From the NCBI RefSeq assembly GCF_029227915.1, contig NC_079880.1, positions 21,144,501 to 21,208,500 on the forward strand: a DNA stretch of 64,000 nt. Reading direction: 5' to 3'. Source of the stretch: Hydractinia symbiolongicarpus (lineage: Eukaryota; Cnidaria; Hydrozoa; Anthoathecata; Hydractiniidae). The translations under genes were made by a program, and so were the position numbers. Positions 4,563 to 47,718 of the stretch are shown here, one piece after another (position 1 is the first letter of the stretch; each line of letters begins with the position of its first letter). The notes under the pieces were generated by a model. The model ran no database searches. It saw nothing but the letters and a program-made list of their open reading frames with translations, and was not told the DNA's origin.

Positions 4563-4795
4563 GAATCTATCCGTTCCAAGTAACACTATCCGTCGACCCC
4601 AAGAGTAACATGGGTTGATTTAACGAATATTTGAATTATATCAAAGTGGTTATATTACAAGCCCCTGTTTATTCATTTTTTAATTTTACTGACAGTACGA
4701 ATCAACTTTAGCGAGCAAGCAAACTTTATTTTTCAAATATTTTTGCAATCACCCCCCACCCCCCTCCCCACACTCTTATTCTATTTCTTGCTAAG
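4563..4795. other. Spacer ending in a C/T-rich tract and candidate splice acceptor
   Basis: A pyrimidine run (4750-4790, CACCCCCCACCCCCCTCCCC) leads into TTCTTGCTAAG, a plausible 3' splice site directly before the acyltransferase-like reading frame. Upstream exons were not recognised. Confidence 0.4.
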
Positions 4796-5797
4796 ACTAT
4801 GATTCTATTTTGGAAAGGAAGAAATAAAATGGAAATTAAAATAATTTCGATATGTGGTAGCATCGAATGCACAACAAAAGGTGGAAGTCTACATCATGAC
4901 AACCATGGTGTAGAAATTATAAAATCAAAAGCTAACTTTTCATTTGCAAAAGTTGAAGACGTTAACTTCGAAATAAGAAAAATACAAGAAAGGGAAATTT
5001 TTCCTCCTGAAGTTCAAGGATTTTCCTTGAAGGTGAATGCGCATCTTTTCATTGCGCAGATCATTTCACTGAATGATAAATCATTGATGTTGGTTGTTAG
5101 TTTTCATCATGTTCTATGCCATGCACATGGAATATTTCGTTTCATGAATGCATGGTCAGAAATGAAGAAATTCTAAGTGTCATTTGGCAAACTGGAATCT
5201 TTAAAACATGATTTCTCTGAAGATCTACCAGAAGGGGTGTTTATATCTAAAAATGATGTACTTACTGGAATCATGGAAAAGACAGCTGTTTGTGGAAGAA
5301 TGGAGAAAAAATTTCAAATTTCAGTAATACCAACAGTTGTGAATTGTAGGCGGGTATTTCATCTTCCTGAGAGTTATTTCGGAAATTGCGTTCCCTACTT
5401 ATGCAAAAGACTACCAACGGAAGACATTCTGAAATGTCTGTAAAAGATGTTAGCTTACTGTTGCGAGAAAAAAAATGATGACATTATGTCAAAGGAATAC
5501 ATATTGGATTTTTTAAACTGGATTTGCAACCAGAAGTCTATCATGCCATTTTCAGACATTTTCAACAACGATTTATTATTCTCATCGTTAGCGCACTATC
5601 CAACGTACGAGTGTGATTTTGGATTAGGTACAGCTATCAATATTGGTGTAGCAAGCAATAATTTTCCAGGTTTCGTATGGATAATTCCAACGCCAGGCGA
5701 TGATGGCTTATATGTTGAATTTTGTCTTGAAAAAAATGTTATGTTGAATTTTCTCAAAGATGAATATATCAAAGACATTTTAACAGTCATCCATTGA
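4796..5797 (+). pseudogene. BAHD-type acyltransferase, decayed (two in-frame stops)
   Basis: One reading frame of about 330 codons is broken by TAA at 5174-5176 and TAA at 5441-5443; homology runs straight through both. Seen in order: a segment like the family's LAGRL...IEC region (LFWKGRNKMEIKI, then GSIECTTKGG), the catalytic-site region VSFHHVLCHAHG, the NDVLTGIM segment with NCRR and YFGNCVPYL (family: DGRSR...YFGN), and near the end YECDFGLGTAINIGV, which matches the structural DFGWG motif. BAHD enzymes move acyl groups from acyl-CoA to alcohols or amines using His of HxxxD. Here the His pair is kept but the Asp position reads His. The N-terminus and about 80 residues between the active site and the NDVLT segment are missing. 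BAHD genes are best known from plants and fungi. The family call is strong, and loss of function is likely. Confidence 0.8.
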
Positions 5798-23101: not shown

Positions 23102-23464
23102 TTAATATAATTTGTTGCGGGTATCTATTCGTGTTGAATTCTTTAAAACCATGTGACAATAACTGAAGAGACACGAGGATATTGTTCCTGACCACCTAAA
23201 AAAAATAAGAATAGAATTTAAGCTGAGCACATTTTAAAGATATGAATTGTGGCTAATTAAATTTAATTGCAGACTTCCTTCCTCGTCATCAATACTAAAT
23301 TGTTCATAATTATTCTTTTTTCCACCAGAAAATCTTTATGGTATTTTATAATGCACCTAAAGAATGACTACACACGCATATATAACTCATCACGGTGAAT
23401 TTGGGCTTATTAGGCACGTGGTAATTTACATAAGACATAACCACGAACGCGAACCTTTAAACGG
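23102..23464. other. Upstream region of the repeat-protein gene
   Basis: No other gene. It should hold distal promoter elements, but I recognise none with confidence. Confidence 0.3.
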
Positions 23465-23571
23465 TATAAAAAGGGTACAATTTTACTTATCTGGCAGTTC
23501 CTTAGCTGGAAAGAAAAGTCAACCAGCAACCAAACAGAAAGATTGAATTGAAACAGAGGAGCGATTGCAAG
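23465..23571 (+). promoter_or_regulatory. TATA box and 5' untranslated exon of the repeat-protein gene
   Basis: TATAAAAAG at 23465-23473 sits about 30 nt before a likely start site near 23495. A 5' UTR exon would run to 23571, with donor AAG/GTATCG. The next acceptor, TTTCTTTCTAG at 23772, lies directly before the ATG. A strong TATA box suggests a highly expressed, cell-type-specific gene (inference). Confidence 0.6.
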
Positions 23572-23772
23572 GTATCGTAAGATATATATCTGTTATCTAT
23601 TTTCATTCATCATGATTTCATTTATCTATTTTCATTCACCATGAATGTGGATAGTTTTCAATGGAATCTTTCCGTATTTTTACAGTATGACTTATAGACT
23701 TCTGTCATGACATGAGAAACAACAAAATTGGTATTTTTTTACTATATTGGAATATTCTTTTTTTCTTTCTAG

Positions 23773-25478
23773 ATGAAGGTGATCTATTTGGTTCTGTTGT
23801 TTGGCTTTGTTGCCACAATGTTTGCAGGTATATAAATCATGATACATTTTTCGTTATTTTCTTTTAATATGTCAATTCAAAGGTCAAAATTCATTGGTTA
23901 ATTTGTGCAAAAAATATCCAGAAATGGCTTTTAAAAATGCATTTGCTCTAACCCTTTTTGCTTAAAAAAATAAATTTTATTCAAAATGTTTTAAAAAATG
24001 AAGTATTTTATGTTTGCATTTCTGACAAAATTTGTAGCACCAGCAGCAGAGGTATCTATTTTTTTGTCTTCACAGAAAGTTAATATTCTTATTTCAAAAA
24101 CATCTGTCTAACGTTAAAGGAAATAAACCATGCTAGCTGTAGCCCAGAAAAGCTTATTACTTCTAACATAGAGAGAACTCTATGTATTTATAATCCTATG
24201 TCTTTTGTAGATGAAACTGATAATACTGCATTGAGTAGTGAAGATGATGAAGACGAAATGGTGGACGATGCACATTGTAAGTCCATACCGTTACAACGTT
24301 TTACTGTTGCAATCTACCTATTATTAGTGTCAAAAGCCACAATTTTCCATATATTTGATAAAAAAACATTCCTTTAACATTACTATAAGTAAAAATCAGC
24401 ATACTTTTATAACTTGCTCTTTATTGGATCTTTTGATCTTAAAGCCGCTACTATCCCTCCCAAAAAAACCTTTTGAAATCAATATCATGTTTGATCAAGT
24501 GGATTTGAGCGCTATGAAAATATTCAATAACCAGTCTATTAATGCACTGGATGAATAATCCACTTAGGTAGACGAACAGTTTGACAGACTGATTTAAAAT
24601 CTTCTGAAGACGAAAACTTTGCAAACATAATGTCAGATTGAAGACTCAGTATTTTATGAAATTTTTAACAAATTGCCTTTATTTTAGATGTTTACAAGAA
24701 ACCCGTTTACAGATATCTTTACAAGAAACATGGATATCCTTACAAGAAACCCGTTCACAAGCATGGATATCCTTACAAAAAACCCGTTTACAAGCCTTAC
24801 AAGAAACCCGTTTACAAGAAACCTGTTTATAAGCCTTACAAGAAACCCGTTTACAAGCATGGATATCCCTACAAGAAACCCGTTTACAAGCCTTACAAAA
24901 AACCCGTTTACAAGCATGGATATCCTTACAAAAAACCCGTTTACAAGCCTTACAAGAAACCCGTTTACAAGAAACCTGTTTATAAGCCTTACAAGAAACC
25001 CGTTTACAAGCATGGATATCCCTACAAGAAACCCGTTTACAAGCCTTACAAAAAACCCGTTTACAAGCATGGATATCCTTACAAAAAACCCGTTTACAAG
25101 CCTTACAAGAAACCCGTTTACAAGAAACCTGTTTATAAGCCTTACAAGAAACCCGTTTACAAGCATGGATATCCCTACAAGAAACCCGTTTACAAGCCTT
25201 ACAAAAAACCCGTTTACAAGCATGGATATCCTTACAAGAAACCTGTTTACAAGCCTTACAAGAAACCCGTTTACAAGAAACCTGTTTATAAGCCTTACAA
25301 GAAACCCGTTTACAAGCCATACAAGAAACCCGTTTACAAGCATGGATATCCTTACAAGAAACCTGTTTACAAGCCTTACAAGAAGCCCGTTTACAAGCAT
25401 GGATATCCTTACAAGAAACCCGTTTACAAGCACGGATACCCTTACAAGAAACCCGCTTATAAACACAAAAAGTATTAA
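23773..25478 (+). CDS. Secreted acidic/cationic Tyr-Lys-Pro-Val repeat protein (about 303 aa)
   Basis: Three coding exons: 23773-23827, 24211-24276 and 24688-25478, all with GT-AG introns and all in phase 1. Exon 1 encodes a signal peptide, MKVIYLVLLFGFVATMFA. Exon 2 encodes an acidic segment with D/E at about half its positions (DETDNTALSSEDDEDEMVDD). Exon 3 encodes about 263 residues made almost only of Y, K, P, V, H and G, built from YKKPV, YKPYKKPV and YKHGYPYKKPV modules and ending AYKHKKY. The signal-acidic-cationic order recalls cnidarian arminin-type antimicrobial precursors, while Tyr/Lys/His/Pro repeats recall DOPA-bearing adhesive or sclerotised structural proteins such as mussel foot proteins. 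Either role is inference. Exon 3 has no start codon in its true frame, so plain ORF calling reports other frames instead. Confidence 0.85.
24690..25460 (+). repeat. Coding minisatellite with a 153-bp higher-order unit
   Basis: The basic 15-24 bp motif (TACAAGAAACCCGTT) is arranged in a 153-bp (51-codon) unit. The marker CATGGATATCCCTAC recurs at 24858, 25011 and 25164, exactly 153 bp apart. Units are almost identical at silent sites, which points to recent expansion or gene conversion. The array is open in at least two plus and two minus frames. Confidence 0.93.
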
Positions 25479-29292: not shown

Positions 29293-29968
29293 TCTCTTAT
29301 AATAATACAGAAACTGTGTCTGTTTGTAACAGGCAAAGTGGATATGTTTATTTTCCTCTGATGTCGCCTAAAAACTGATGTCTCAAATGTTAAAATTTCC
29401 GACGTTACGGCGCAACGTCAATAACACTACTTTAACGTGAATATCTTATACTAAATTAATGAAGCCATTGTAGTGCACCTAAAACTTTGAGGCCAAATAA
29501 AACTTAGAAACGAGGTGGTGACGTCAATTATTTTTCATCGCGTGATGAAATTAGGGACCACTTGGGACCAATTTGGGTAAGTTTCCCAAACCTGGGTCCC
29601 CGAATCCGTTTCGAAATGGACGGTTTGATGACGTCATGAAAAAACCTTTAAACCCTAATATCTCTGCAACCATTTATCAAAAGTACATGATCCTATACAC
29701 TTTCTTTTTGTCTGTTTTTGCGGGTCTTTGCTGACGTCAGCAAACTTTTCAAACCCTTATATCTACCTAGGCGTTTGTCGAAAACATTTGATCCTATACA
29801 TTATTTGATCAGTTTCAACCTCTGGACATTACAAGCAAAGAATAAACTAAATTTTGCCAATTTTTTTTTATGGCTCTACACTGCTGTAATCAGCAAAAAA
29901 TCTAAAACATCCTATTTTTTCACTGCCCTTCTGTCTAAGTGGATTTCTCCACAGGCTTTATCGACTAG
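29293..29968 (+). mobile_element. Non-autonomous Helitron-like element, 676 bp, second subfamily
   Basis: Inserted between A29292 and T29969. 5' TCTCTTATAATAATACAGAA. 3' GTGGATTTCTCCAC hairpin (29939-29952) then AGGCTTTATCGACTAG. An A/T insertion site, 5' TC, hairpin and CTAG meet all structural Helitron criteria. No Rep or helicase. A second copy with a 425-bp internal deletion ends at 36826. Confidence 0.8.
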
Positions 29969-32266
29969 TCAATAAATAATTTTATTTTTGACAGAATTCT
30001 AATTCTTAAACATAATAAAAATTTTTTTAGGAATTTTCAATCTATTTTTTAGAGAAGAGAGCTACACTATATCTATTAAATATTTTTAAACTTTGATGCA
30101 AATTGTTTGACCTACAACAAAAACATTTTTGTAAAAACAGTAACATGTTAAATGGTGTCTTCACGTTCTGAAAAAAATTAGTTTATGCAAAAACCGATAC
30201 GAACAAACAATTTGTGGTTAGTATTGTAAGTTTATCATTTCCTGAACATGTTTAAGAAATAATAAAGCCACAATACTAATTATGACTTAATTAGTATTGT
30301 AGGTTATCCTTTTATCCTTAGAAGCAGCAGTACACATGTGTCAACAAAATAATACTACTTCTTAGAATATTTACCAATGGTTCCAAAAAAGCTTACATTC
30401 CCTCTCTGGTCGCTTCAGAAACTCAAGATAAATAGAACCATTTCGGATAAGTTGATAGTACTGTTAATACAGTGTATTCTGCATTGTAAAAAACTCTTTT
30501 ACCGGTGGTAGTAAGAAGCAAATCCTTTCTGGTTGAAGATATTTTCCCATCACCAATTCTTTTCAGAGTTGTTCGCCAATAAATCTGGCAGTATACACGC
30601 GTTTTTTTCACAAGAATACTAAAAATCTAAATAGGCTGGTCATTATTATTAGTTCTCTGTTCTTCTAAACCTATTGTTTTTAACATGAAATCCCAGCTTG
30701 GTATTCTTCTAAACCATAATCTTAAGGAAAGAAACGTGTAAGTAGTATCAAATACACTCAACCTTTCAGAAAATCAATCATTAAAGAAGAGGCGAATTGA
30801 TCTGCGACAGGGTTGCTGAATAAGAGCCATTTCTAATGTTGATCTTAAAGATCAGACCGACTGACTTTTCTGATCCACAAACCAGACCTAGGGCCGGATG
30901 GAGGTATAAGCAAGATAAGCGCGCTTACTTTCAAAACCGTAGAGAAAAAGCCCGCACGCGTCTCGTGTGTGTAGTTTTCCTTGTATTTTTAGAAAGTCTG
31001 GTAAGGAAGTTGTGTTTTTGCTTATTGCGCTTATTCACTTTCCCAAACAAAGTAGATAGAAACTCCTCTGAGCAAGCAAAACGAAAAGCAACTTTGCTTT
31101 CTCGCTTATTAAAGAATAAGCAAGTAAGAGTGTCAAAGTTGATATATTTGCTTTTTTGCATGGAGAGAATGCGGAGATGAAAAACTACTTTGCTATCGCG
31201 TATAAGCAAATAAGCAAAAAAAAGGCAAGGTAGACAGAATTTCTCAACCGCAACGAAATGAATGCAAACAGTCCACTTTGTTCGTGCTTATAACCAATCA
31301 ACCATAGATGGACGGTAGAGGTAGTGTGAACTTTTAGGTTTCTGGATGAATTTTGACTATTTCTTATGAATTTGAAGTACCCAGTGTGTAGTAGTATGTA
31401 TAGTTTATTCCCTAAGATTTTTTTTTGGCCTAAGAAGATTATTTTAAAAGGTTTCTCTCTCCAAGAATATCTATATATAGTGAATGAGATACTTATTTAT
31501 TATTCACTATAGTAGTTGAGAATGTGTGTACACTAAGTTCTTTTACTGATCCTGTTCTGTATGAAACTTCTGGTGCTAAATTTTTTTAACAAAATGAGTT
31601 TGTAGCTACTGCTTTGTCTTGTGTTATTTTTTATACTCAAACCTCCCCACCACACAAATAAATAAATCAAAAGAAAAATACACTCAAAATAATTCTGAAG
31701 TGTTCATGTGGTGCTTCATTTGTTATTTTATACCTAGCAAGATACACTAGTGGTTGGATTTTGAAAGAACATTGAGCCAGTATGATGAGTGGAAACAGAG
31801 CTGTATTAAGGATGGAAAACGTTTTCATCAATTTTCAAGCCAAGTCATCGTAGTGGTGCCCTCTGCCAAGACTACTTGACATATGTTATATAGCTAAAAC
31901 AATATGGATAGAAAAAATCTTACCAATCTTACTAATATTTTTTATTTCATTACTGCCTTTTTATCTGATGCATTTTTTTGTTATGCAGTGTCATTTGAGA
32001 TGGTAACTCTCTTTACAGATCTATTTCTGTGTTGCTGATTCTTGATGAAACCCTGGCTTTTGAGAATTTCGATCAACTGCTTGACAATATTTGTGTGCAA
32101 TGTTTATGAGATGGTTGTGATGTGTATACAAAGACCAAGTCAAGAGAACTGTTCATAATTGAGTAAGCAAAATGTGTTTCAAAATCCTTCATTTGGTCAT
32201 CATTTATGTGCGTTTTATCAATTTTTAATGTTGTTGAGGTATAATAATTTTTTACTAAATGTGTAA

Positions 32267-32340
32267 ACTCCTGTGATCAAATGGTATGATATTTATAATA
32301 CAGTTTCGTAAAAGGTTCAGGTTCGATTCCTGACAGGAGT
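32267..32340 (+). tRNA. Degenerate tRNA-like sequence (pseudogene), copy 1
   Basis: 74 nt with a perfect 7-bp acceptor stem (ACTCCTG/CAGGAGT), a perfect 5-bp T stem with loop TTCGATT, and a consensus B box GGTTCGATTCC. The D-arm is weak (GATCAAATGGTATGAT) and no standard 7-nt anticodon loop forms, so it is unlikely to act as a tRNA. It lies inside the hAT element. Confidence 0.55.
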
Positions 32341-32561
32341 AAACTATATGTGATGCAGGCAGTACCTTTAAAATTTGTGTCACTCTATATATTTTTTAAT
32401 TTTGTAGCATCCTATTAAAACCACCTATCAAAGCTTATGATATAAACAAATGGACAATTTATTCAACACAATTATTGAGCCCATGAGAGGTGTTGCTGGT
32501 GTTTCTGTGAAAGTATTTTGATTTAACTAGAAGGTTAAGTTTAAAGAATTCCTGCAATTGT

Positions 32562-32914
32562 TTGCGAGTGATATTCCGGCCCTTAGTAACATATGCCCAG
32601 TTGGATATCTGGGGGATATTTTGGAAAAACTATCAAGGTGCTCTACCAACAGATATCACCTCTTTACTTAAAACCACAAATAGGTACACATTTCCATCAA
32701 TCCGTGAAGTTTTGAGAATTTTGGCTACAATTCCTGTAACCTCATGCACTTGTGAGAAAAATATCTCTGGACTAAGGCGTTTAAAGATTCAGATGCGAAA
32801 CATCATGTCGCGGAGGAAAGGTTAAGCAGCCTAGCAGTTATCATGTTTAACAGGTCAATCACTGTGATCTCTGATGAAGTGATAGATGAATTTGCTGAAC
32901 AGAATAAGAGATAA
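32562..32914 (+). pseudogene. hAT transposase C-terminal dimerisation domain, frameshifted copy
   Basis: The frame reads FPSIREVLRILATIPVTSC then CEKNISGLRRLK, matching the hAT dimerisation consensus (FPNxxxLLRIxxTLPVTSCxCERSFSxLRRLK). An extra CG near 32811 (ATGTCGCGGAGG against ATGTCGGAGG in copy 2) shifts the frame and truncates the ORF at 32825. Homology continues in another frame to TAA at 32912-32914. The catalytic core is not preserved as an ORF, so it is an inactive fragment. Confidence 0.85.
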
Positions 32915-33285
32915 AGGCTTTTTGAAATACATATACCTGGTGATTGATTTATACATAGTTTACATGTTTTATATACTTTAGCTGTATATTTTTTATGTAT
33001 ATTGTCACTTATTGTACTTTTTAACGCTGGAAAACGCCTGAACAAGGTGATAAATTTTGTTACTATTAGGTCCGCCAATTTTGCGTATTTTAACGCCCAT
33101 TCTGGGCGGTAATCTCCCGGAAAATTTTTTTGCTTAGTTACATAAAAATCCTGGATCCGACCCTGAGACCGACTGACATGTTCTGTTCGTAACTATTTTT
33201 TTCATGTCACAGCTATTATGACAAGAAGAAAATTTTTGAACAAGGAGATAGAATGTTGTAATATATTAAAAATATACGTAGAGTA

Positions 33286-33843
33286 CAGTATACTCTCGTT
33301 AAGTAGGACCATGGATAAGTAGGACGCTCGCTATATATACTACGTTTTTTCTCCGTGCTTTGAACTTCCTTATTTCTTCATGCAAAAAACTTCGCTTAAG
33401 TAAGACTCGAGATAAGTAAGACGCCCGCTAAGTAATACATTTTTTCTCCTTGTCTTGGAAAAAACCTTTCCTTAGGTTGAACATTTTCGTGAGAGGGCAG
33501 TCATGTCGCAGGTGGAGCAAAAAAGGAATTTGAGCTCGACACCAAATTACATGATGAGGTTAAAGAAAAAAACAATCAAAATTGCTTCATATAAGCAGGC
33601 TTGAGGTTGATGACAACACATAAGCGTCTGACGACCCGTCTCATGCACTTAATGATAACCTCCGTCAACTGAGTACAAGGGGTGAAAATTTCGCAGTTTC
33701 TTTGCTGAAGATGTCGCTTCTTTCGATGACGCAGTTCACGTAACTCAGGCTTTGATGGCTGATGAAGAAATCTGGACCGATGTTCTACTAAACAATGTCG
33801 AAGAATTCAAGGAAAATGGTGACCAAGATACCGACCAAATTTA
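33286..33843 (+). mobile_element. Pogo/Tigger-like remnant, copy 1
   Basis: CAGTATACTCTCGTTAAGTA at 33286 after TA is a pogo-type end, with 'taagtaagac' sub-terminal repeats to 33440. A decayed acidic coding stretch follows (MADEEIWTDVLLNNVEEFKE), like the acidic tail of pogo-type transposases. Copy 1 lacks 4 nt near 33752 and has a premature TAA at 33841. No right end was found. Confidence 0.55.
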
Positions 33844-34459
33844 AAAAAAGCCAACTACAAACTTAACTACGTGATGCAATTGATACCTTGATGAATTACT
33901 CAATGATGATCGATACCTAACCAGTTAGTATAGCTCCATACAAAGCCCTGTTTTAATAAGCTGTAAACCAATCAAATCATCGGATTTTTCATACTAACCG
34001 GTTTTTTCTATCAGTCAGGTAGTTTGTATTTCACAGTACAACATCAAAACCGGTCAGTATCCGCTTATTACAAACTGTACACTGTAAAAATTTTGTGATA
34101 ACCTTTTTTGTATGACTTGGCGAAATATGTTTTAATGTCGATATACTTTTTATGTGGTGTACTTTTGGCATGACAAAGCAAGTATATAGTTTTAGCAGAT
34201 TTCGCTTTTGACGTGTAACGGTTGTTAGACACCTTTGATAGTGTTCGACATTTTGAACTTTTATTTTTTTAATTTTTTTATTCATTTTTTCTTGAACCTG
34301 CTTATATTTATAGACGTTTTGTTTCAGCGGGTAGAAGTATAGAATAACGCAGATTGTGAGTTTTAAAATTCAAATTACTGTGCTGTATGTTTTTGTTTGG
34401 TACCCCTCACACGGATTCAATGAAAGGTACAGTGGATTCTTCCACGGGAATTCGGCTAG

Positions 34460-35650
34460 TCTCTATAATAATGGCTGTATTCCGTTCAAAATGGTTGCGC
34501 GCAACTTTTCTCGCAGGGCTAGATTTTCACAGACTTTGCGTTTTGGTTTTGCGCAGCATAATTTTAGAATTACGCCAGACCCAGATAAATAACGGAAACA
34601 TGCTACGGAGGCCATTTTAGTTTGGAAGTGATGGTATCAAGTTTGCAGATCTGTTTGACCTTTTTGTCTTCTATAAGCTTTTTTATTTTGTAGCATTTGA
34701 TTTCTTTCTGTTTTCACATGCAAGTATATTTTTACGTTTTTTTTACCCACGCACAAATCTTAAATCACCAATTTTAAGATTTTGGCAAGAAATGTAGATC
34801 TTGAACCATCTTAGCTAGCTATAATTAGCTTAACTTACTCTTGGTATACTATTATTCATTTATATTTAGTGTTATGGCTATCTAACCAGCTCTTTAGCTA
34901 CCTCTAACTAAAAAGTGAAAGTAGCCAAATGCATTTTTTAGCTAGCTAGCTACAACAAATTTCGTATTCCATAATTCTTACGATGCTAAACCATAGTTGA
35001 TAGACAAAAACCCTTGTTTAGAGAATCGGTAAACTTCGAAGAGCCAAAGATCAATTTTTCGCTGATGTTGAAAGTACGCATTATTTAGCTAACCGTGCAC
35101 GCTGATTCAAAAATGGCAGAGCGACAAGAGAAAACATTGCATGAGGAAGAAACTTTTCACTATTTAGACGACGAATTTGATGAAATTTTAGAGTTTTTAG
35201 AAAAAAATGAAATACCAGAAGATGAAATAGAATATATCGCTGAAAATGTAAGTACTTTTTGTAATTTTTAAGAAAATGTATTATCATAAATTCACGCTTC
35301 GCAAGCTAGCTAGCTAAATTTATCTGACTTTTGTTAATAAAACTGTAGCTTTTAAAAAGATCCAGCTAATTTCTTATTCATTTATAGATTGAACCAGGTT
35401 CGTTTATGTGCGAAATTTGTGAAAAGCGTTGCAAGAGTAAAGGTCGGTTAAAACTCCATAAAATAAAGCATACATCAACTACACCAGTAAATAATGAAGA
35501 AGTCGATTTGTCAATCATAACTGTTCAGAGATTTTCTTGTATTGTAGCTGATTCCTGCAAAAAGATTTTAGACAGCCTCTATCCTGAGGGCATCCAACAA
35601 CAGTTACTTGTGGCTGAACCCGGTGTTTCGACTTCGGGCCTCCCGGCTAG
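34460..35650 (+). mobile_element. Helitron-like element carrying a zinc-finger gene, copy 1 (block Y deleted)
   Basis: It starts TCTCTATAATAATGGCTGTA directly after another element's 3' end (hairpin GTGGATTCTTCCAC, then TTCGGCTAG). It contains block X, then the two-exon zinc-finger gene, and ends GGGCCTCCCGGCTAG before T35651. Relative to copy 2 it lacks about 510 bp (block Y). Confidence 0.65.
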
Positions 35651-35726
35651 TTGTATATTAAAGGCTCGTTTCTATTTGACTGCATTTTTCGCTAAGGTGG
35701 ATAAAGCTGACGGACCTTTTTGTTAG
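35113..35726 (+). CDS. C2H2 zinc-finger protein fused to the Helitron end, copy 1
   Basis: Exon 1 is 35113-35247 (45 codons) and exon 2 is 35388-35726; the 140-bp intron has donor GTAAGT and acceptor TTTATAG, phase 0. Exon 1 encodes an acidic N-terminus (LDDEFDEILEFLEKNEIPED). Exon 2 has one perfect C2H2 finger, CEICEKRCKSKGRLKLHKIKH in form C-x2-C-x12-H-x3-H, then a helical-looking segment (VQRFSCIVADSCKKILDSLY). After YPE the frame runs into Helitron 3' sequence and adjacent DNA (GIQQQLLVAEPGVSTSG...) up to TAG. That is a deletion-made fusion of about 157 aa. It may be a fragment of a longer host gene. Confidence 0.6.
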
Positions 35727-36099
35727 CGCTTGCACAATTGAAGAAAATTTTAAAGAAAAACCATCCTATTGAAGTTTATGAACGCCTATAATACTTACAA
35801 ACGCTGTTCTTCTATGCTCATAAACGCTATAGTTACATGAAGGACTAGCAAGACAGACTGCTTATTTCACTTTTCTTATTTATTTTTCTACGTACTGATT
35901 TAGAAAACTATTCTGCTGTAATCAAGGAATTGCTTTCCTTATATTGCAGACAAGTAATTGATATGCTATACTTTTGGCTGAACGCTAAGTATTTTTTGAA
36001 AATAGGAATCTGGATATATATTCAAGTCGTTGAAACGAGTAGCAATAACCGAAGGAGAAAATCCAATAAGTAAGAAACAAGATTATTTTTAATAGTAGT

Positions 36100-36649
36100 T
36101 CTCGTTCTTGTTCTCACAATGGAACTTGCAAACACGCATACCGGTAAATGCCGTAATCAAGCGCACCCGGGTATAAGCGCAGCCGTAGTTAAGCGCATCA
36201 AATCTCAATCATCATTACATTACCGTTAATAAGCGCACCCTTAGAGATAAGCGCGTTTAAAGATTCCGATGATTCCACAACTGTCGAAGATTAAGGAAAG
36301 ACGATTAGTACATGTAGAGCAATTTTACTTTATAGTTGAGATGAACTTTTTAGGGCAATACACGTCATTAAAGATTATTCTGTTATTCTTTTGTTTTCCC
36401 TTGCACTTTTTTAACCTCGAATATAAGCGCGCACTTACATAGGCGCACCAATGTTATTAGCATTATTATCACCGCTTTGAGTAGTGCGCGTGATTACGAC
36501 CCACCTGAATTTGCATATTAGAAGGCCTTCTTTTTCTGAACTATTAGGAAGGTTGGATCATGACTAAACATTAAATTGCAAGTCAAGGATCCATTTCAAA
36601 ATTGCGAGGTGAAAAAATTGAAAAATAGTATGCTAAAAATAATGTAGAA
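36100..36649 (+). mobile_element. TE fragment with AAGCGCA motifs, copy 1
   Basis: GCCGTAATCAAGCGCACCCG starts a run of 'ataagcgca' motifs. Near 36480 GTGCGCGTGATTACGACCC is a partial inverted partner. The unit recurs at 43480-44022, and in diverged form at 55320-56260. I do not recognise the superfamily. Confidence 0.55.
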
Positions 36650-39124
36650 CCTAAAAACTGATGTCTCAAATGTTAAAATTTCCGACGTTACGGCGCAACG
36701 TCAATAACACTACTTTAACGTGAATATCTTATACTAAATTAAAAAAAAATTAAAAAATCTAAAACATCCTATTTTTTCACTGCCCTTCTGTCTAAGTGGA
36801 TTTCTCCACAGGATTTATCGACTAGTCAATAAATAATTTTATTTTTGACAGAATTCTAATTCTTAAACATAATAAAAATTTTTTTAGGAATTTTCAATCT
36901 ATTTTTTAGAGAAGAGAGCTACACTATATCTATTAAATATTTTTAAACTTTGATGCAAATTGTTTGACCTACAACAAAAACATTTTTGTAAAAACAGTAA
37001 CATGTTAAATGGTGTGTTCACGTTCTGAAAAAAATTAGTTTATGCAAAAACCGATACGAACAAACAATTTGTGGTTAGTATTGTAAGTTTATCATTTCCT
37101 GAACATGTTTAAGAAATAATAAAGCCACAATACTAATTATGACTTAATTAGTATTGTAGGTTATCCTTTTATCCTTAGAAGCAGCAGTACACATGTGTCA
37201 ACAAAATAATACTACTTTTTAGAATATTTACCAATGGTTCCAAAACAGCTTGCATTACCTCTCTAGTCGCTTCAGAAACTCAAGATAAATAAAAACCATT
37301 TCGGATAAGTTGATAGTACTGTTAATACAGTGTATTCTGCATTGTAAAAAACTCTTTTATCGGTGGTAGTAAGAAGCAAATCCTTTCTGGTTGAAGATAT
37401 TTTTCCATCACCAATTCTTTTCAGAGTTGTTCGCCAATAAATCTGGCAGTATACACGCGTTTTTTTCACAAGAATACTAAAAATCTAAATAGGCTGGTCA
37501 TTATTATTAGTTCTCTATTCTTCTAAACCTATTGTTTTTAACATGAAATCCCAGCTTGGTATTCTTTTAAACCATAATCTTAAGGAAAGAAACGTGTAAG
37601 TAGTATCAAATACACTCAACCTTTCAGAAAATCAATCATTACAGAAGAGGCGAATTGATCTGCGACAGGGTTGCTGAATAAGAGCCATTTCTAATGTTGA
37701 TTTTAAAGATCAGACCGACTGACTTTTCTAATCCACAAACCAGACCCAGGGTCGGATGGAGGTATAAGCAAGATAAGCGCGCTTACTTTCAAAACCGTAG
37801 AGAAAAAGCCCGCACGCGTCTCGTGTGTGTAGTTTTCCTTGTATTTTTAGAAAGTCTGGTAAGGAAGTTGTGTTTTTGCTTATTGCGCTTATTCACTTTC
37901 CCAAACAAAGTAGATAGAAACTCCTCTGAGCAAGCAAAACGAAAAGCAACTTTGCTTTCTCGCTTATTAAAGAATAAGCAAGTAAGAGTGTCAAAGTTGA
38001 TATATTTGCTTTTTTGCATGGAGAGAATGCGGAGATGAAAAACTACTTTGCTATCGCGTATAAGCAAATAAGCAAAAAAAAGGCAAGGTAGACAGAATTT
38101 CTCAACCGCAACGAAATGAATGCAAACAGTCCACTTTGTTCGTGCTTATAACCAATCAACCATAGATGGACGGTAGAGGTAGTGTGAACTTTTAGGTTTC
38201 TGGATGAATTTTGACTATTTCTTATGAATTTGAAGTACCCAGTGTGTAGTAGTATGTATAGTTTATTCCCTAAGATTTTTTTTTGGCCTAAGAAGATTAT
38301 TTTAAAAGGTTTCTCTCTGCAAGAATATCTATATATAGTGAATGAGATACTTATTTATTATTCACTATAGTAGTTGAGAATGTGTGTACACTAAGTTCTT
38401 TTACTGATCCTGTTCTGTATGAAACTTCTGGTGCTAAATTTTTTCAACAAAACGAGTTTTTAGCTACTGCTTTGTCTTGTGTTATTTTTTATACTCAAAC
38501 CTCCCCACCACACAAATAAATAAATCAAAAGAAAAATACACTCAAAATAATTCTGAAGTGTTCATGTGGTGCTTCATTTGTTATTTTATACCTAGCAAGA
38601 TACTCTAGTGGTTGGATTTTGAAAGAACATTGAGCCAGTATGATGAGTGGAAACAGAGCTGTATTAAGGATGGAAAACGTTTTCATCAATTTTCAAGCCA
38701 AGTCATCGTAGTGGTGCCCTCTGCCAAGGCTACTTGACATATGTTATATAGCTAAAACAATATGGATAGAAAAAATCTTACCAATCTTACTAATATTTTT
38801 TATTTCATAACTGCCTTTTTATTTGATGCATTTTTTTGTTATGCAGTGTCATTTGAGATGGTAACTCTCTTTACAGATCTATTTCTGTGTTGCTGATTCG
38901 TGATGAAACCCTGGCTTTTGAGAATTTCGATCAACCGCTTGACAATATTTGTGTGCAATGTTTATGAGATGGTTGTGATGTGTATACAAAGACCAAGTCA
39001 AGAGAACTGTTCATAACTGAGTAAGCAAAATGTGTTTCAAAATCCTTCATTTGGTCATCATTAATGTGCGTTTTATCAATTTTTAATGTTGTTGAGGTAT
39101 AATAATTTTTTACTAAATGTGTAA

Positions 39125-39198
39125 ACTCCTGTGATCAAATGGTATGATATTTATGATACAATTTCGTAAAAGGTTCAGGTTCGATTCCTGACAGGAGT
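39125..39198 (+). tRNA. Degenerate tRNA-like sequence (pseudogene), copy 2
   Basis: Same 74-nt structure as 32267-32340, with two substitutions in the anticodon region and intact acceptor and T stems. Confidence 0.55.
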
Positions 39199-39419
39199 AA
39201 ACTATATGTGATGCAGGCAGTACCTTTAAAATTTGTGTCACTCTATATATTTTTTAATTTTGTAGCATCCTATTAAAACCACCTATCAAAGCTTATGATA
39301 TAAACAAATGGACAATTTATTCAACACAATTGTTGAGCCCATGAGAGGTGTTGCTGGTGTTTCTGTGAAGGTATTTTGATTTAACTAGAAGGTTAAGTTT
39401 AAAGAATTTCTGCGATTGT

Positions 39420-39770
39420 TTGCGAGTGATATTCCGGCCCTTAGTAACATATGCCCAGTTGGATATGTGGGGGATATTTTGGAAAAACTATCAAGGTGCT
39501 CTACCAACAGATATCACCTCTTTACTTAAAACCACAAATAGGTACACATTTCCATCAATCCGTGAAGTTTTGAGAATTTTGGCTACAATTCCTGTAACCT
39601 CATGCACTTGTGAGAAAAATATCTCTGGAGTAAGGCGTTTAAAGATTCAGATGCGAAACATCATGTCGGAGGAAAGGTTAAGCAGCCTAGCAGTTATCAT
39701 GTTTAACAGGTCAATCACTGTGATCTCTGATGAAGTGATAGATGAGTTTGCTGAACAGAATAAGAGATAA
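39420..39770 (+). pseudogene. hAT transposase C-terminal dimerisation domain, open copy
   Basis: 116 codons without the frameshift of copy 1. Motifs: LDMWGIFWKNYQGALP, FPSIREVLRILATIPVTSC, CEKNISGVRRLKIQMRNIMS, EERLSSLAVIMF. This is the dimerisation domain of a hAT transposase of the type also found in ZMYM/THAP-like domesticated proteins. The catalytic core and a start in context are missing, so it is a fragment even though this part is open. Confidence 0.85.
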
Positions 39771-40141
39771 AGGCTTTTTGAAATACATATACCTGGTGAT
39801 TGATTTATACATAGTTTACATGTTTTATATACTTTAGCTGTATATTTTTTATGTATATTGTCACTTATTGTACTTTTTAACGCTGGAAAACGCCTGAACA
39901 AGGTGATAATTTTTGTTACTATTAGGTCCGCCAATTTTGCGTATTTTAACGCCCATTCTGGGCGGTAATCTCCCGGAAAATTTTTTTGCTTAGTTACATA
40001 AAAATCCTGGATCCCACCCTGAGACCGACTGACATGTTCTGTTCGTAACTATTTTTTTCATGTCACAGCTATTATGACAAGAAGAAAATTTTTGAACAAG
40101 GAGATAGAATGTTGTAATATATTAAAAATATACGTAGAGTA

Positions 40142-40729
40142 CAGTATACTCTCGTTAAGTAGGACCATGGATAAGTAGGACGCTCGCTATATATACTACG
40201 TTTTTTCTCCGTGCTTTGAACTTATTTCTTCATGCAAAAAACTTCGCTTAAGTAAGACTCGAGATAAGTAAGACGCCCGCTAAGTAATACATTTTTTCTC
40301 CTTGTCTTGGAAAAAACCTTTCCTTAGGTTGAACATTTTCGTGAGAGGGCAGTCATGTCGCAGGTGGAGCAAAAAAGGAATTTGAGCTCGACACCAAATT
40401 ACATGATGAGGTTAAAGAAAAAAACAATCAAAATTGCTTCATATAAGCAGGCTTGAGGTTGATGACAACACATAAGCGTCTGACGACCCGTCTCATGCAC
40501 TTAATGATAACCTCCGTCAACTGAGTACAAGGGGTGAAAATTTCGCAGTTTCTTTGCTGAAGATGTCGCTTCTTTCGATGACGCAGTTCACGTAACTCAG
40601 GCTGATTTGATGGCTGATGAAGAAATCTGGACCGATGTTCTACTAAACAATGTCGAAGAATTCAAGGAAAATGGTGACCAAGATACCGACCAAATTTTAA
40701 AAAAGCCAACTACAAACTTAACTACGTGA
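40142..40729 (+). mobile_element. Pogo/Tigger-like remnant, copy 2
   Basis: Same end CAGTATACTCTCGTTAAGTA at 40142. The acidic tail-like frame is open here from about 40559 to TGA at 40727-40729 (EDVASFDDAVHVTQADLMAD...), whereas copy 1 is shifted and stopped. The DDE core is absent. Confidence 0.55.
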
Positions 40730-41313
40730 TGCAATTGATACCTTGATGAATTACTCAATGATGATCGATACCTAACCAGTTAGTATAGCTCCATACAAAG
40801 CCCTGTTTTAATAAGCTGTAAACCAATCAAATCATCGGATTTTTCATACTAACCGGTTTTTTCTATCAGTCAGGTAGTTTGTATTTCACAGTACAACATC
40901 AAAACCGGTCAGTATCCGCTTATTACAAACTGTACACTGTAAAAATTTTGTGATAACCTTTTTTGTATGACTTGGCGAAATATGTTTTAATGTCGATATA
41001 CTTTTTATGTGGGGTACTTTTGGCATGCCAAAGCAGGCATATAGTTTTAGCAGATTTCGCTTTTGACGTAACGGTTGTTAGACACCTTTGATATTGTTTG
41101 ACATTTTGAATTTTTATTTTTTTTTATTTTTTTATTCATTTTTTCTTGAACCTGCTTATATTTATAGACGTTTTGTTACAGCGGGTCGAAGTATAGAATA
41201 ACGCAGATTGTGAGTTTTAAAATGCAAATTACTGTGCTGCATGTTTTTGTTTGGTACACCTCACACGGATTCAATGAAAGATACAGTGGATTCTTCCACG
41301 GGAATACGGATAG

Positions 41314-43028
41314 TCTCTATAATAATGGCTGTATTCCGTTCAAAATAGTTGCGCGCAACTTTTCTCGGAAAATTATCACAGGGCTAGATTTTTACAGACT
41401 TTGCGTTCTGGTTTTGCGCAGCATAATTTCAGAATCAGGCCAGACCCAGATAAATAACGAAAACATGCTGCGGAGGCCATTTCAGTTTGGAAGTGATGGT
41501 GTCAACTTTGTAGATCTGTTTGACCTTTTTGTCTTCTTTTTTATTTTGTAGCATTTGATTTCTTTCTGTTTTCACATGCAAGTATATTTTTACGTTTTTT
41601 TTACCCACGCACAAATCTTAAATCACCAATTTTAAGATTTTGGCAAGAAATGTAGATCTTGAACCATCTTAGCTAGCTATAATTAGCTTAACTTACTCTT
41701 GGTATACTATTATTCATTTATATTTAGTGTTATGGCTATCTAACCAGCTCTTTAGCTACCTCTAACTAAAAAGTGAAAGTAGCCAAATGCATTTTTTAGC
41801 TAGCTAGCTACAACAAATTTCGTATTCCATAATTCTTACGATGCTAAACCATAGTTGATAGACAAAAACCCTTGTTTAGAGAATCGGTAAACTTCGAAGA
41901 GCCAAAGATCAATTTTTCGCTGATGTTGAAAGTACGCATTATTTAGCTAACCGTGCACGCTGATTCAAAAATGGCAGAGCGACAAGAGAAAACATTGCAT
42001 GAGGAAGAAACTTTTCACTATTTAGACGACGAATTTGATGAAATTTTAGAGTTTTTAGAAAAAAATGAAATACCAGAAGATGAAATAGAATATATCGCTG
42101 AAAATGTAAGTACTTTTTGTAATTTTTAAGAAAATGTATTATCATAAATTCACGCTTCGCAAGCTAGCTAGCTAAATTTATCTGACTTTTGTTAATAAAA
42201 CTGTAGCTTTTAAAAAGATCCAGCTAATTTCTTATTCATTTATAGATTGAACCAGGTTCGTTTATGTGCGAAATTTGTGAAAAGCGTTGCAAGAGTAAAG
42301 GTCGGTTAAAACTCCATAAAATAAAGCATACATCAACTACACCAGTAAATAATGAAGAAGTCGATTTGTCAATCATAACTGTTCAGAGATTTTCTTGTAT
42401 TGTAGCTGATTCCTGCAAAAAGATTTTAGACAGCCTCTATCCTGAGGCTATTGAGTCTGAGTAAATAATCTTAGAATTTGTATGATTCTGAGTCTACAAT
42501 TATTCTTATAAAAAGAGTTTATATTTCGGACCGCACAATATAATTCGCGGTTTGACAGTTCTTATTAATCACTTATCCGGTTGTTCAACGCCAGGTAACA
42601 TTTACTTGTGGCTTAACCCCGTTAACCAAAGCTACAATACAATTTTTTTGAAGATGGTATTTCCTAAACGCATTTGCGACACGGTTTATCTGTACTAAGC
42701 GCTAAGTCTAGTGTCAGGATTAATTCCGAAAAATAAAATAATGTTGATCAATTGTTTCTGCTATGACGGGGTAACAACGGGTTGTAAACTGTGTTTTTAT
42801 TTCGGCTAAAGTTGCAGTAAAGTTTTAATTTAAAAAATTAATCACACCCGAAACACTATAAATGTTGTGTGCGCTTTACTCTATTAACGACATACCGTAT
42901 ACCCTTACTAAAGCGCTCCACCTGACCGTGTCGCACAGTTTGCAGTTCTTATTAAGCGCTCCGCAGGGCGTCCAACAACAGTTACTTGTGGCTGAACCCG
43001 GCGTTTCGACTTCGGGCCTCCCGGCTAG
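41314..43028 (+). mobile_element. Helitron-like element carrying a zinc-finger gene, fuller copy
   Basis: 5' TCTCTATAATAATGGCTGTA; block X at about 41530-41950; zinc-finger gene 41971-42464; block Y 42480-42970; 3' end GGGCCTCCCGGCTAG before T43029. The element at 25927-27365 has X and Y without the gene, so the gene is a passenger captured between them. Confidence 0.68.
41971..42464 (+). CDS. C2H2 zinc-finger protein, two exons, intact 117-aa form
   Basis: Exons 41971-42105 and 42246-42464 with a 140-bp GT-AG intron. The protein is identical to the copy-1 product up to LDSLYPE, then ends AIESE-stop. It has an acidic N-terminus of about 45 residues, one C2H2 finger (Cys pair at about residues 53 and 56, His pair at about 69 and 73), and a C-terminal helical segment. 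It could bind nucleic acid or protein through the finger. Being inside a Helitron-like element, it may be a truncated capture of a host gene rather than a working gene. Confidence 0.65.
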
Positions 43029-43479
43029 TTGTATATTAAAGGCTCGTTTCTATTTGACTGCATTTTTCGCTAAGGTGGATAAAGCTGACGGACCTTTTTG
43101 TTAGCGCTTGCACAATTGAAGAAAATTTTAAAGAAAAACCATCCTATTGAAGTTTATGAACGCCTATAATACTTACAAACGCTGTTCTTCTATGCTCATA
43201 AACGCTATAGTTACATGAAGGACTAGCAAGACAGACTGCTTATTTCACTTTTCTTATTTATTTTTCTACGTACTGATTTAGAAAACTATTCTGCTGTAAT
43301 CAAGGAATTGCTTTCCTTATATTGCAGACAAGTAATTGATATGCTATACTTTTGGCTGAACGCTAAGTATTTTTTGAAAATAGGAATCTGGATATATATT
43401 CAAGTCGTTGAAACGAGTAGCAATAACCGAAGGAGAAAATCCAATAAGTAAGAAACAAGATTATTTTTAATAGTAGTTC

Positions 43480-44240
43480 TCGTTCTTGTTCTCACAATGG
43501 AACTTGCAAACACGCATACCGGTAAATGCCGTAATCAAGCGCACCCGGGTATAAGCGCAGCCGTAGTTAAGCGCATCAAATCTCAATCATCATTACATTA
43601 CCGTTAATAAGCGCACCCTTAGATAAGCGCGTTTAAAGATTCCGATGATTCCACAACTGACGAAGATTAAGGAGAGACGATTAGTACATGTAGAGCAATT
43701 TTACTTTATAGTTGAGATGAACTTTTTAGGGCAATACACGTCATTAAAGATTATTCTGTTATTCTTTCGTTTTACCTTGCACTTTTTTATACTCGAATAT
43801 AAGCGCACCCTTACATAGGCGCACCAGACTTTTAGAATTATTGTCACCGCTGTGAGCACTGCGCGTGATTACGACCCCTGGATTTGCATGTTTGAAGGCC
43901 TTCTTTCTCTGAACTATTAGGAAGGTTGGATCATGACTAAACATTAAATTGCTAGTCAAGGATCCATTTCAAAATTGCGACGTGAAAAAATTGAAAAATA
44001 GTATGCTAAAAATAATGTAGAAAAATTGTTGAATAGGATAGAAGAGACAGGTTTGCTGAGTTATGACTATTACTTTGCATGTTAGTTCAAATAATTTCAG
44101 TTATTTATTTTTGTATTCTTGATTATTTATAAGGTATACACTGTAGAAGCAAAAAATGGTTTAAACAAATAGTACGTATAAGAAATTAATAATATTACAA
44201 ATATACACAAAATATCAGTTAGTTAAAAATACAAATAGAT
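43480..44240 (+). mobile_element. TE fragment with AAGCGCA motifs, copy 2 with extension
   Basis: Same as 36100-36649 but it continues past the duplication end: GAATAGGATAGAAGAGA through TTGATTATTTATAAGG matches 55990-56240. This shows the natural element runs on to about 44240. Confidence 0.55.
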
Positions 44241-45422: not shown

Positions 45423-47718
45423 TTATAATTGTTGTATCTGTTGATCGCACATTTCGTTGCTGGAACGTAGTTTTAAATATTGTAGTTTGTTAGTATTTTC
45501 TTTAACGGCTTCTTGAATGGATTCTGATATATATTTGGTTGAGAGTGACGTTATTTTATCATTATATAGATTTATTTCTTTTAAATGAGGTATACACTGT
45601 TGCAATTCTTTAATGTGATCATCATGAAGATTGCAAGATCTTAATTTCAATTCTTCTAACTTGTTCGCATCTCTTTCGAATGCATGTGAAATAGATTCTG
45701 ATATATATTTCACCGAAAGTGGCGTTATTTCATAATTAAAAGAAAGATCTAAACATTTCAAAAGTGGTATACACTGTTGCAATTCTTTAATGTGATCATC
45801 ATGAAGATTGCAAGATCTTAATTTCAATTCTTCTAACTTGTTCGCATCTCTTTCGAATGCATGTGAAATAGATTCTGATATATATTTCACCGAAAGTGGC
45901 GTTATTTCCTTGTTGCAAGAAAGATCCAAGCTTTTTAAATGGGGTATACACGGTTTTAATTGTTTAATGTGATCATCAGTTAGGTTGCTGTCATTAAATC
46001 CTAAGTGTTGTAACCTTATAGTGTTTTCTTTAGCTGCTTGTGCAATAGATTTTACAGTTATATTATAGTCAGTTAAGTTTGTGTGTAAAAAGGTAAGATG
46101 ACTGGTGGTAATTAAAGGGGATAAAAGTAAAGGTAGAACTGTAGAAATTTCTTTGTTGTTCAATTTTCTATCTCTCATATAAAATGTGATATGTAATGTA
46201 TTTGTCATGCATTTTGTAATACTTTTTAGGAAAAATATTAACTGGGTTATAATGTGGTGATAACGAAGGGTCAGACATGGATATTCTTCACAAAAGTATT
46301 TCTTTACGGTTTCATTACCAACACCATGATGCTCATAAAAAGCGGCTAAAAATACGTTCGAAGCTAGACCTTTAAAGAAGACTTCCGAAGGCTTAGGAAC
46401 ACATGGCACTTTTATACCATTTACGAAAGTTTTGATAAAATCTGGTCCAAAATAGCTTTTCTCCAGTATCCCATACAATCCAGCAACCATTGGATAAACA
46501 CGGCACTTATCTTTGTAATTTAAATTACTCTTCTCCATATCCAATCCATTATGGAATATATAAACAGCGCAAAAGAAATCTTGTAGAACCGCATGTCGGA
46601 ATTGAAACACGTGCGCGCCATTATTACCTATACCTATGACTTTCTCAATTTTACCCAATTGTTCGATTTCTCTTATATAATCCCTTTCCTCTTTCACCAA
46701 CTCTTGAGGGTGAGATAAATTCTTTTCTTTTGAGAAGCTTTAAAAGAAATTTCTGATATTTTAATAATCATTTGTATGATCTTTTCATCCTGTGATAACT
46801 TGTCCAACGAATGGTTCCTTTCCTTACATGCGCTCATATGATCTCTTAAAAATACCAGACAGGTAGTGACGTTTAGTTTTGTGTTTGTGTTAACTCCTAG
46901 ACTTTTTTTGGAGGCATACACACTGCATAGAACATGCAAATAAATCGGTATTGTAGCCATCGCCCTAAGATTTTCGACTTCTTCAAGCGATGTTTTCAAA
47001 CGTTGAATTTTCATATAAGTGTTTATACTATTTTCACTAAAACCAGACACTTCTACTAGTTTTAGCTCCATGCTTTCCTGCAATATATTTTGAAGTATAC
47101 AAAGAGCGCCTGCTCGACCGCAAACAATCACCTTGCTGTTGCGTAGTAATGGCATTTTCTGTAGGATTAAATCGTGTATAACAGAGACAAACTTTTGTGT
47201 GGGTGCTGCAAATTCGTCAATAGCATCAATGATTATCAAAACACTGCTATTGTTTTCCATTAAGCCATCAAAAAGCCAGTCGTAGATGTCAGGACACAAA
47301 AGTTTAAAAAGTTCCTCGATGCTGGCGATGTGACTTAATGTGTCTAAACTAGGTAACGTAAATTTTGAAAGAAAGTCAAAATTGTTTATCATTTTACCAT
47401 GCGCCCATTTTAAAACTAAGTTGTTGATAAGAGAAGTCTTCCCAATGCCAGCAACACCCCTGATTAAAATACATTGATCCTCTTCTTGTAAGATATCTTT
47501 CATTTCAATGTTTGTCTTTGTTATAGGAAACGCTTTACCTTTGTTACTACTGTTAAGATTGTCGTCCAACGAATCTACTAACAAATCTACATACGCCTAA
47601 TTGCGGTCTTTGGTTGTATATTCTCTCCCAGCATCTGTTTTAAACACAATAGGAATATTCCATTGTGATAACTCTTTCTTGTAATGCTGTTTTAATAATT
47701 TGGAATACTTTTCCAGAC
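45423..47718 (-). pseudogene. NLR: NACHT NTPase with leucine-rich repeats (one stop, one frameshift)
   Basis: The exon starts at 47718 after acceptor TTTTATTATAG. Order along the protein: a pre-NACHT helix (LLKQHYKKELSQWNI), Walker A GVAGIGKTSL, Walker B VLIIIDAIDEF, a winged-helix-like region with FRHAVLQDFFCAVYIF (family: FxHxxxQEFxAAxYL), then about six ribonuclease-inhibitor-type LRRs ending at TAA 45423-45425. Lesions: in-frame TAG at 47597-47599 before NACHT, and a 1-nt frameshift in the A-rich run 46719-46731 (frame one reads SQKKRIYLTLKSW-stop, frame two continues NLSHPQELVKEERDYI). NLRs are cytosolic innate-immune sensors and are greatly expanded in cnidarians. N-terminal effector exons (Death, CARD or other) were not found upstream. 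Either a pseudogene or an allele with sequencing indels. Confidence 0.85.
45598..45951 (-). repeat. Two near-identical 177-bp LRR modules
   Basis: TGTTGCAATTCTTTAATGTG begins at 45598 and again at 45775, exactly 177 bp (59 codons) apart. Each encodes two LRRs (LEELKLRSCNLHDDHIKELQ ... ITPLSVKYISESISHAFERD). They are almost identical at the DNA level except for the segment coding KCLDLSFNYE/KSLDLSCNKE, which points to recent unequal crossing over within the sensor domain. Confidence 0.9.

Follow-up and report, generated by a model that had tools for sequence, protein, structure and literature searches.

A gene on chromosome 6 (contig C6) of the hydroid Hydractinia symbiolongicarpus, lying within the 64,000-nucleotide stretch of DNA analysed here (the window, C6:21144501-21208500), encodes in its joined reading frames a polycationic protein built of Tyr/Lys/Pro repeats. 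With a probability that we put at roughly 55%, its product would be secreted and, once cross-linked by oxidation outside the cell, serve as a structural or adhesive protein in the perisarc, the stolon or the attachment site. The gene is ordinary in kind, being that of a repeat-built secreted structural protein, and unusual in its grammar.

Results

Structure of the gene and its product

Three coding exons, joined across two GT-AG introns that both lie in phase 1, yield a protein of 303 residues (Table 1), which consists of an 18-residue signal-like peptide, a 22-residue acidic segment with a net charge of -11 and a Cys-free basic domain of 263 residues with a net charge of +87. Splice sites and frames thus bear out the arrangement proposed in an initial annotation of this DNA, namely a signal peptide, an Asp/Glu-rich segment and basic repeats on three exons joined in phase 1, where "signal-like" denotes the Kyte-Doolittle hydrophobicity of the peptide, not the call of a signal-peptide predictor. 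By a simple home-made splice score, the donors of the gene rank 2, 3 and 6 among 97 sites and its acceptors 1, 17 and 23 among 118.

Table 1. Features of the Tyr/Lys/Pro repeat gene, in positions of the window
Feature	Position	Strand	Remarks
TATAAA box	23465..23470	+	308 bp upstream of the ATG; string search, consensus only
Likely 5'-UTR exon	23495..23571	+	Inferred, with its start guessed from the TATA box; donor AAG|GTATCG ranks 6/97 GT sites
Likely 5'-UTR intron	23572..23772	+	Ends directly before the ATG (TTTCTTTCTAG|ATG); GT-AG; acceptor ranks 1/118
Coding exon 1, signal-like peptide MKVIYLVLLFGFVATMFA	23773..23827	+	Ends in phase 1; Kyte-Doolittle peak 2.9 over 11 residues
Coding exon 2, acidic segment DETDNTALSSEDDEDEMVDDAH	24211..24276	+	11 Asp/Glu among 22 residues; Lys/Arg absent
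Coding exon 3, cationic Tyr/Lys/Pro repeat domain, 263 residues and stop	24688..25478	+	Analysis of frame and repeat variation
Higher-order unit of 153 bp (51 residues)	24738..25317	+	3.8 copies, 99% alike; Tandem Repeats Finder

The basic domain is composed of 86 Lys, 68 Tyr, 53 Pro, 29 Val, 13 His and 11 Gly, with single residues of Arg, Leu and Ala. It can be parsed into 29 modules, 13 of them YKPYKKPV, eight YKHGYPYKKPV, four YKKPV and four variants, so that the three module types named in the initial annotation are recovered. Leaving aside the first and the last, its Tyr residues stand in the contexts VYK (27), PYK (24) and GYP (11) and in four further contexts that occur once each. The charge of the acidic segment is rare in its surroundings: among the 32,447 stop-free segments of 22 residues that the 64 kb contain, five reach -11, of which three overlap in exon 2 and the other two belong to the two copies of a duplicated segment (35167 and 42025).

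Variation between the repeats of exon 3

That exon 3 stays open proves little in itself, because two of its three forward frames are open, the second over 264 residues, as are two reverse frames (273 and 267 residues), and because open minisatellites occur elsewhere in the genome. The variation between the repeats is, by comparison, specific to one frame. In 29 cores chosen by protein motif, 13 of the 14 variant cells fall on codon position 3, and in 30 cores chosen by DNA, with at most four mismatches, 15 of 18 do so. When exon 3 is aligned with itself without gaps, codon position 3 takes 260 of the 282 mismatching pairs and position 1 the remaining 22, whereas the commonest phase in three minisatellites that served as control arrays accounts for 557/1009 (55%), 1014/2524 (40%) and 1184/1649 (72%) of the pairs. 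Because duplication gives all these differences a shared history, they are not independent, and we attach no p-value to them. A first control was less clear, with one or two variant cells in three of its four arrays and 21 of 34 in one phase in the fourth. As judged from its DNA, the gene structure is real, and it is probably coding.

Within the higher-order array, unit 2 has the same sequence as unit 3, and two bases set unit 1 apart from either, from which we infer that the first units were homogenised recently. The fourth unit follows the others in its first part only, and its 31 differences from unit 1 lie mostly past a changed order of modules.

Uniqueness of the repeat domain

An exact 21-mer of the repeat core has 13 matches in the genome, all of them within the gene, and, six weak protein matches apart, no second gene with a repeat of the YKKPV type was found when the H. 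symbiolongicarpus genome was searched by protein, by pattern and by DNA. Searched with the protein, the whole genome gave 19 matches, three of which are the exons of the gene itself. Ten (at loci L010, L011, L014 and L016) were rejected as relatives, being minisatellites open in several frames, and the remaining six (L015, L018, L022, L023, L026 and L027) are weak, with E values from 1.6e-4 to 6.8; open minisatellites on C1, C7, C5 and C11 are among the next best matches. The DNA of positions 23400-24290, searched against the genome, matches only itself. No Pfam family matches the protein at its cut-off, the sole hit being Extensin_1 (PF02095) with 9.5 bits and E = 1.1 against a gathering cut-off of 105 bits. 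A PDB sequence search with the protein gave nothing up to E = 10.

Elsewhere in the window, a tandem segmental duplication (29895-36649 and 36752-44022) aligns in two blocks of 98.2% and 97.3% identity and holds two similar ORFs (32511-32825 and 39369-39770), of which the latter has a hAT dimerisation domain according to Pfam. On the reverse strand, positions 45423-47596 carry an NLR-like gene, in which an ORF with a NACHT domain precedes one with leucine-rich repeats; a 177-bp repeat lies inside the leucine-rich part. On the forward strand, two ORFs at 4712-5797 match HxxxD acyltransferases (PF02458), the cut-off being narrowly missed by one and passed by the other; this family is best known from plants and fungi. 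Rfam models found no match in the 64-kb window at gathering score.

A dispersed element that shares the repeat core

A degenerate pattern for YKKPVYK, picked with the gene already known, has 74 matches in the genome, 26 in the repeat gene and 48 at 46 other places, compared to one match for the reversed pattern and three for one permuted peptide pattern. The 46 other places (L034-L079) belong to a dispersed element with several subfamilies, which mostly carries TATAAGAAACC[A/C]GT[T/C]TATAAG, in many copies apparently near one end. With E values of 1e-5 or better, 45 of the 46 places match another copy, a few only across 30-50 bp round the motif, and none of the frames read at 14 of these loci looks like a protein gene. 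The 15-bp unit is tandemly repeated at two places (L038 and L039), at the latter with a unit that agrees with the gene core in 14 of 15 bases. The best match of the element to exon 3 spans 33 bp at 94% identity within the repeat core (E 2.5e-8, against the small set of copies); outside the repeat there is no convincing similarity, the 3' flank giving at best 23 bp on the other strand (E 0.01) and intron 2 at best 13 bp (E 0.18).

The match between element and core is largely unsurprising on account of codon choice, given the peptide. Because the similarity is limited to the repeat core and the pattern was chosen post hoc, a common origin of the two is only a lead, which on present sequence comparisons we regard as possible but rather doubtful.

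Relation to cross-linked proteins and candidate enzymes

In the literature text searched, the repeat strings recur in the foot protein Apfp1 of the pen shell, in a plant class of proline-rich repeat proteins that carries PPPVPVYKKPL (PMC3149072), and in two papers on antibacterial peptides, to which we return below. Apfp1, the foot protein 1 of the bivalve Atrina pectinata, bears KKPPVYKPKKPVYKPKKRPAYKPKKK (PMC7018726), and its stretch KKPPVYKPKKPVYKPKK is very near our repeats; as is typical of foot protein 1, the Hydractinia protein combines Tyr/Lys/Pro tandem repeats with a signal-like peptide and a basic charge. Apfp1 has 15% Lys, 15% Pro and predicted disulfides, however, whereas the basic domain described here has 33% Lys, 26% Tyr and no Cys. 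The resemblance is likely to be a case of convergence across phyla. In the chemistry of byssus proteins, Lys adjoins oxidised Tyr.

Plant extensins and proline-rich tandem repeat proteins are likewise basic and secreted and have Tyr/Lys/Pro repeats with VYK, a putative site for cross-links between extensin molecules that is cited together with the extensin peroxidase (PMC3149072). The Hydractinia protein differs from them in lacking Ser-Pro4 and in being encoded by an animal gene, and this resemblance would be convergent as well.

The epidermis of hydroids is described as secreting exoskeletal structural proteins, phenols and enzymes, and phenoloxidase has been reported in the cross-linking (phenolic tanning) of a hydroid perisarc (PMC5316283). 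In the H. symbiolongicarpus genome, we count 19 tyrosinase-family matches, taken per exon. The loci L030-L033 (C1:12.3 and 15.9 Mb) are long single open frames of this family, forming five copies in two clusters; the one ORF read, that of L030, shows no signal peptide within its own open frame. The sole match to plant-type peroxidases of family PF00141 (L082, 1426-2634; C13:13.856 Mb) is an open frame of 402 residues that starts with a signal-like peptide and has a basic tail of Gly, Lys and Arg, and two PF00141 peroxidases are among the basal-disc genes described for Hydra (PMC5080974). The tyrosinase-family and peroxidase genes are candidate enzymes only, and their encounter with the repeat protein is putative. 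Hwang et al. (2013), cited in PMC5316283, are said to have described DOPA-iron complexes in a hydroid perisarc.

Comparison with stolon repeat genes

A stolon-enriched cell type of Hydractinia expresses chitin synthase together with clustered shematrin- and prisilkin-like repeat genes, the shematrin-like genes being placed on chromosomes 2 and 3; the main text of that study makes no mention of tyrosinase (PMC11876637). By genome search, we located a cluster of Gly-Tyr repeat genes on C2, with further matches on C3. The shematrin-like genes that we located on chromosome 2 lie at C2:25.09-25.37 Mb, and each may be one of those in the published atlas figure. Seven of them (L085, L086, L087, L089, L092, L093 and L094) have a repeat exon that opens with Asp or Glu. 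All seven have an acceptor 7 nt ahead of the ATG and a signal-peptide exon that closes with a GT donor; in the three measured, this exon is 49 nt long and ends in phase 1. DEESDP or EEESDP begins the next exon, whose acceptor was read in L085, L086, L087 and L089 and whose frame alone was read in the other three. A further gene of this chromosome, L088 (3540-4380 on the reverse strand of C2:25356500-25361500), carries signal peptide and repeats in one frame, the intron of its neighbours being absent. An acidic exon between the signal and repeat exons of L089 was considered and dropped, no fitting donor being seen in the DNA inspected.

The chromosome 6 gene follows a similar plan, with the acceptor of its 5'-UTR intron directly before the ATG, a short signal exon of 55 nt, a phase-1 intron and a next exon opening DETDN, and it shares with the stolon genes the Tyr-rich repeats containing Lys, His and Gly, in the same animal. 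It differs from them in its location outside the clusters of chromosomes 2 and 3, in its low content of Gly (4% of the whole 303 residues), in the lack of an EESDP start, in its extra acidic exon and in its Lys/Pro-rich repeats; the Gly motif XGnX (X = I, L, V or Y) of the published shematrin-like genes (PMC11876637) has no match in the protein.

When the N-terminus of the repeat protein was aligned with those of the seven chromosome 2 genes, 26 and 133 of 3000 shuffles scored at least as high as the two best pairs, and 751 to 2363 did so for the remaining five; for the best-of-seven score the number is 128 of 3000, for the mean of the seven 345. In a run restricted to two of the genes, L087 was equalled by 8 and 61 of 2000 shuffles at the two query lengths used, L089 by 200 and 181 of 2000. 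Of the signal peptides of six chromosome 2 genes compared with ours, one yields a score that 91 of 2000 shuffles attain, while for each of the others at least 658 do, and the signal peptide of the PF00141 peroxidase scores 33 against ours, above all six. In genome searches, the repeat protein and the chromosome 2 family never find each other, and a piece of L089 returns 10 matches, all on C2. The repeat gene thus shares with the stolon genes an exon plan that secreted genes may have in common by chance; the sequence link between them is weak, and we do not count it as a member of their family.

Discussion

We propose that the gene is expressed as a secreted, intrinsically disordered and polycationic structural protein of the hydroid. 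Upon removal of the signal peptide, the Lys-rich chain would bind to polyanions and to the chitin-protein matrix outside the epidermis. Oxidation of its 68 Tyr residues would then fix it there: a peroxidase would yield dityrosine or isodityrosine, a phenoloxidase DOPA and quinone, and these products would react with adjoining Lys and His. We see in the short acidic segment a possible handle for solubility or sorting, or as a nucleus of self-association, rather than as a mask. The likeliest site would be the perisarc or the attachment of the stolon, supplied by the epidermis, where Hydractinia makes shematrin-like repeat proteins. One of the two readings offered in the initial annotation, a DOPA-cross-linked adhesive or perisarc protein, is in part retained here: it is favoured by the VYK and PYK contexts of 51 of the 68 Tyr and by the biology of a chitinous-stolon hydroid that has stolon cells making repeat proteins, with DOPA as one of the two chemistries proposed.

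It is conceivable that a cationic, Tyr-rich polymer of this kind serves outside the cell in some other capacity, without a function in the perisarc, such as the condensation of mucus or egg coats with sulfated glycans, the packing of the nematocyst wall or the binding of metals (Fe, Zn or Cu). The argument from composition applies equally to such roles, and the 13 His of the basic domain are in keeping with them. We consider them unlikely, if a serious alternative, as we have no positive evidence for mucus, egg-coat or nematocyst sites and the domain has no Cys. Minicollagens cross-link by disulfides, and cross-links of this type are therefore excluded for the basic domain.

The other reading of the initial annotation saw in the gene a host-defence precursor similar to the arminins of Hydra, whose signal peptide is followed by an acidic and then a cationic part, the anionic part being able to offset the cationic one. 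Such a polycation would kill or immobilise microbes at the epithelial surface, the acidic part keeping it inactive beforehand. The signal-like peptide, the order of acidic and cationic parts and the charge of +87 agree with this, and the string YKPYKK occurs once in each of the two papers on antibacterial peptides (PMC10869384, PMC5415599). Unlike the arminins, however, the repeat protein is longer, repetitive and imbalanced in charge: with -11 against +87, masking by charge balance is not possible, and a long domain rich in Tyr and Pro is not what a defence peptide would lead one to expect. The release of small peptides by the usual convertases is unlikely too, because KR, RR and RK do not occur in the protein and 29 of the 31 KK pairs precede Pro (the other two precede His and Tyr), and a Pro after KK blocks the usual dibasic cleavage. 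In a search confined to dibasic sites, no canonical one was found between the acidic and the basic part, so that to call the former a pro-segment is an interpretation; cleavage at acidic residues is known in cnidarians. Taken together, the masked-precursor reading is not borne out, and a defence function in the wider sense seems to us distinctly unlikely.

One can also ask whether there is a gene at all, or just an open minisatellite beside chance exons. Minisatellites of this sort exist on four other chromosomal contigs, the dispersed element with its 15-bp core does not lie in protein-like frames where it was read, and two of the three acceptors have middling ranks (17 and 23 of 118). Against this stand the concentration of variants at codon position 3, which exceeds that in the control arrays, and the presence of a signal-like peptide, GT-AG sites, a TATA box and a stolon-like exon plan, all of which render the chance arrangement very improbable. 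A multi-copy neuropeptide precursor, for which the tandem short modules behind a signal-like peptide could be cited, is scarcely credible, since Gly followed by Lys or Arg for amidation and acidic residues between the modules are both absent and only two of 31 dibasic sites are free of a following Pro.

If the preferred reading of a cross-linked structural or adhesive protein is true, Cnidaria reached a Tyr/Lys/Pro cross-link grammar near that of the pen-shell byssus and of plant cell walls. In the perisarc literature consulted here, we met no sequence of a tanned hydroid-perisarc protein. As the gene named here belongs to a hydroid for which CRISPR knock-in has been published (PMC6122657), the question of such a protein becomes directly testable.

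A bolder version of this reading, which as a whole we hold to be rather unlikely, would make the product an "animal extensin" of the hydroid perisarc. On this view a young gene, organised in exons like the stolon genes, would have gained a cationic VYK/PYK domain, cross-linked by a secreted plant-type peroxidase or a phenoloxidase, with its 15-bp core seeded by the dispersed mobile element (TATAAGAAACC[A/C]GT[T/C]), which is tandemly expanded elsewhere. If this were true, a first candidate sequence would be at hand for the DOPA-type protein reported from hydroid perisarc, and the structural domain of the gene would have been born from a non-coding repeat. The likeness between the core of the array and the dispersed element would then offer a concrete route for the birth of a lineage-specific structural gene.
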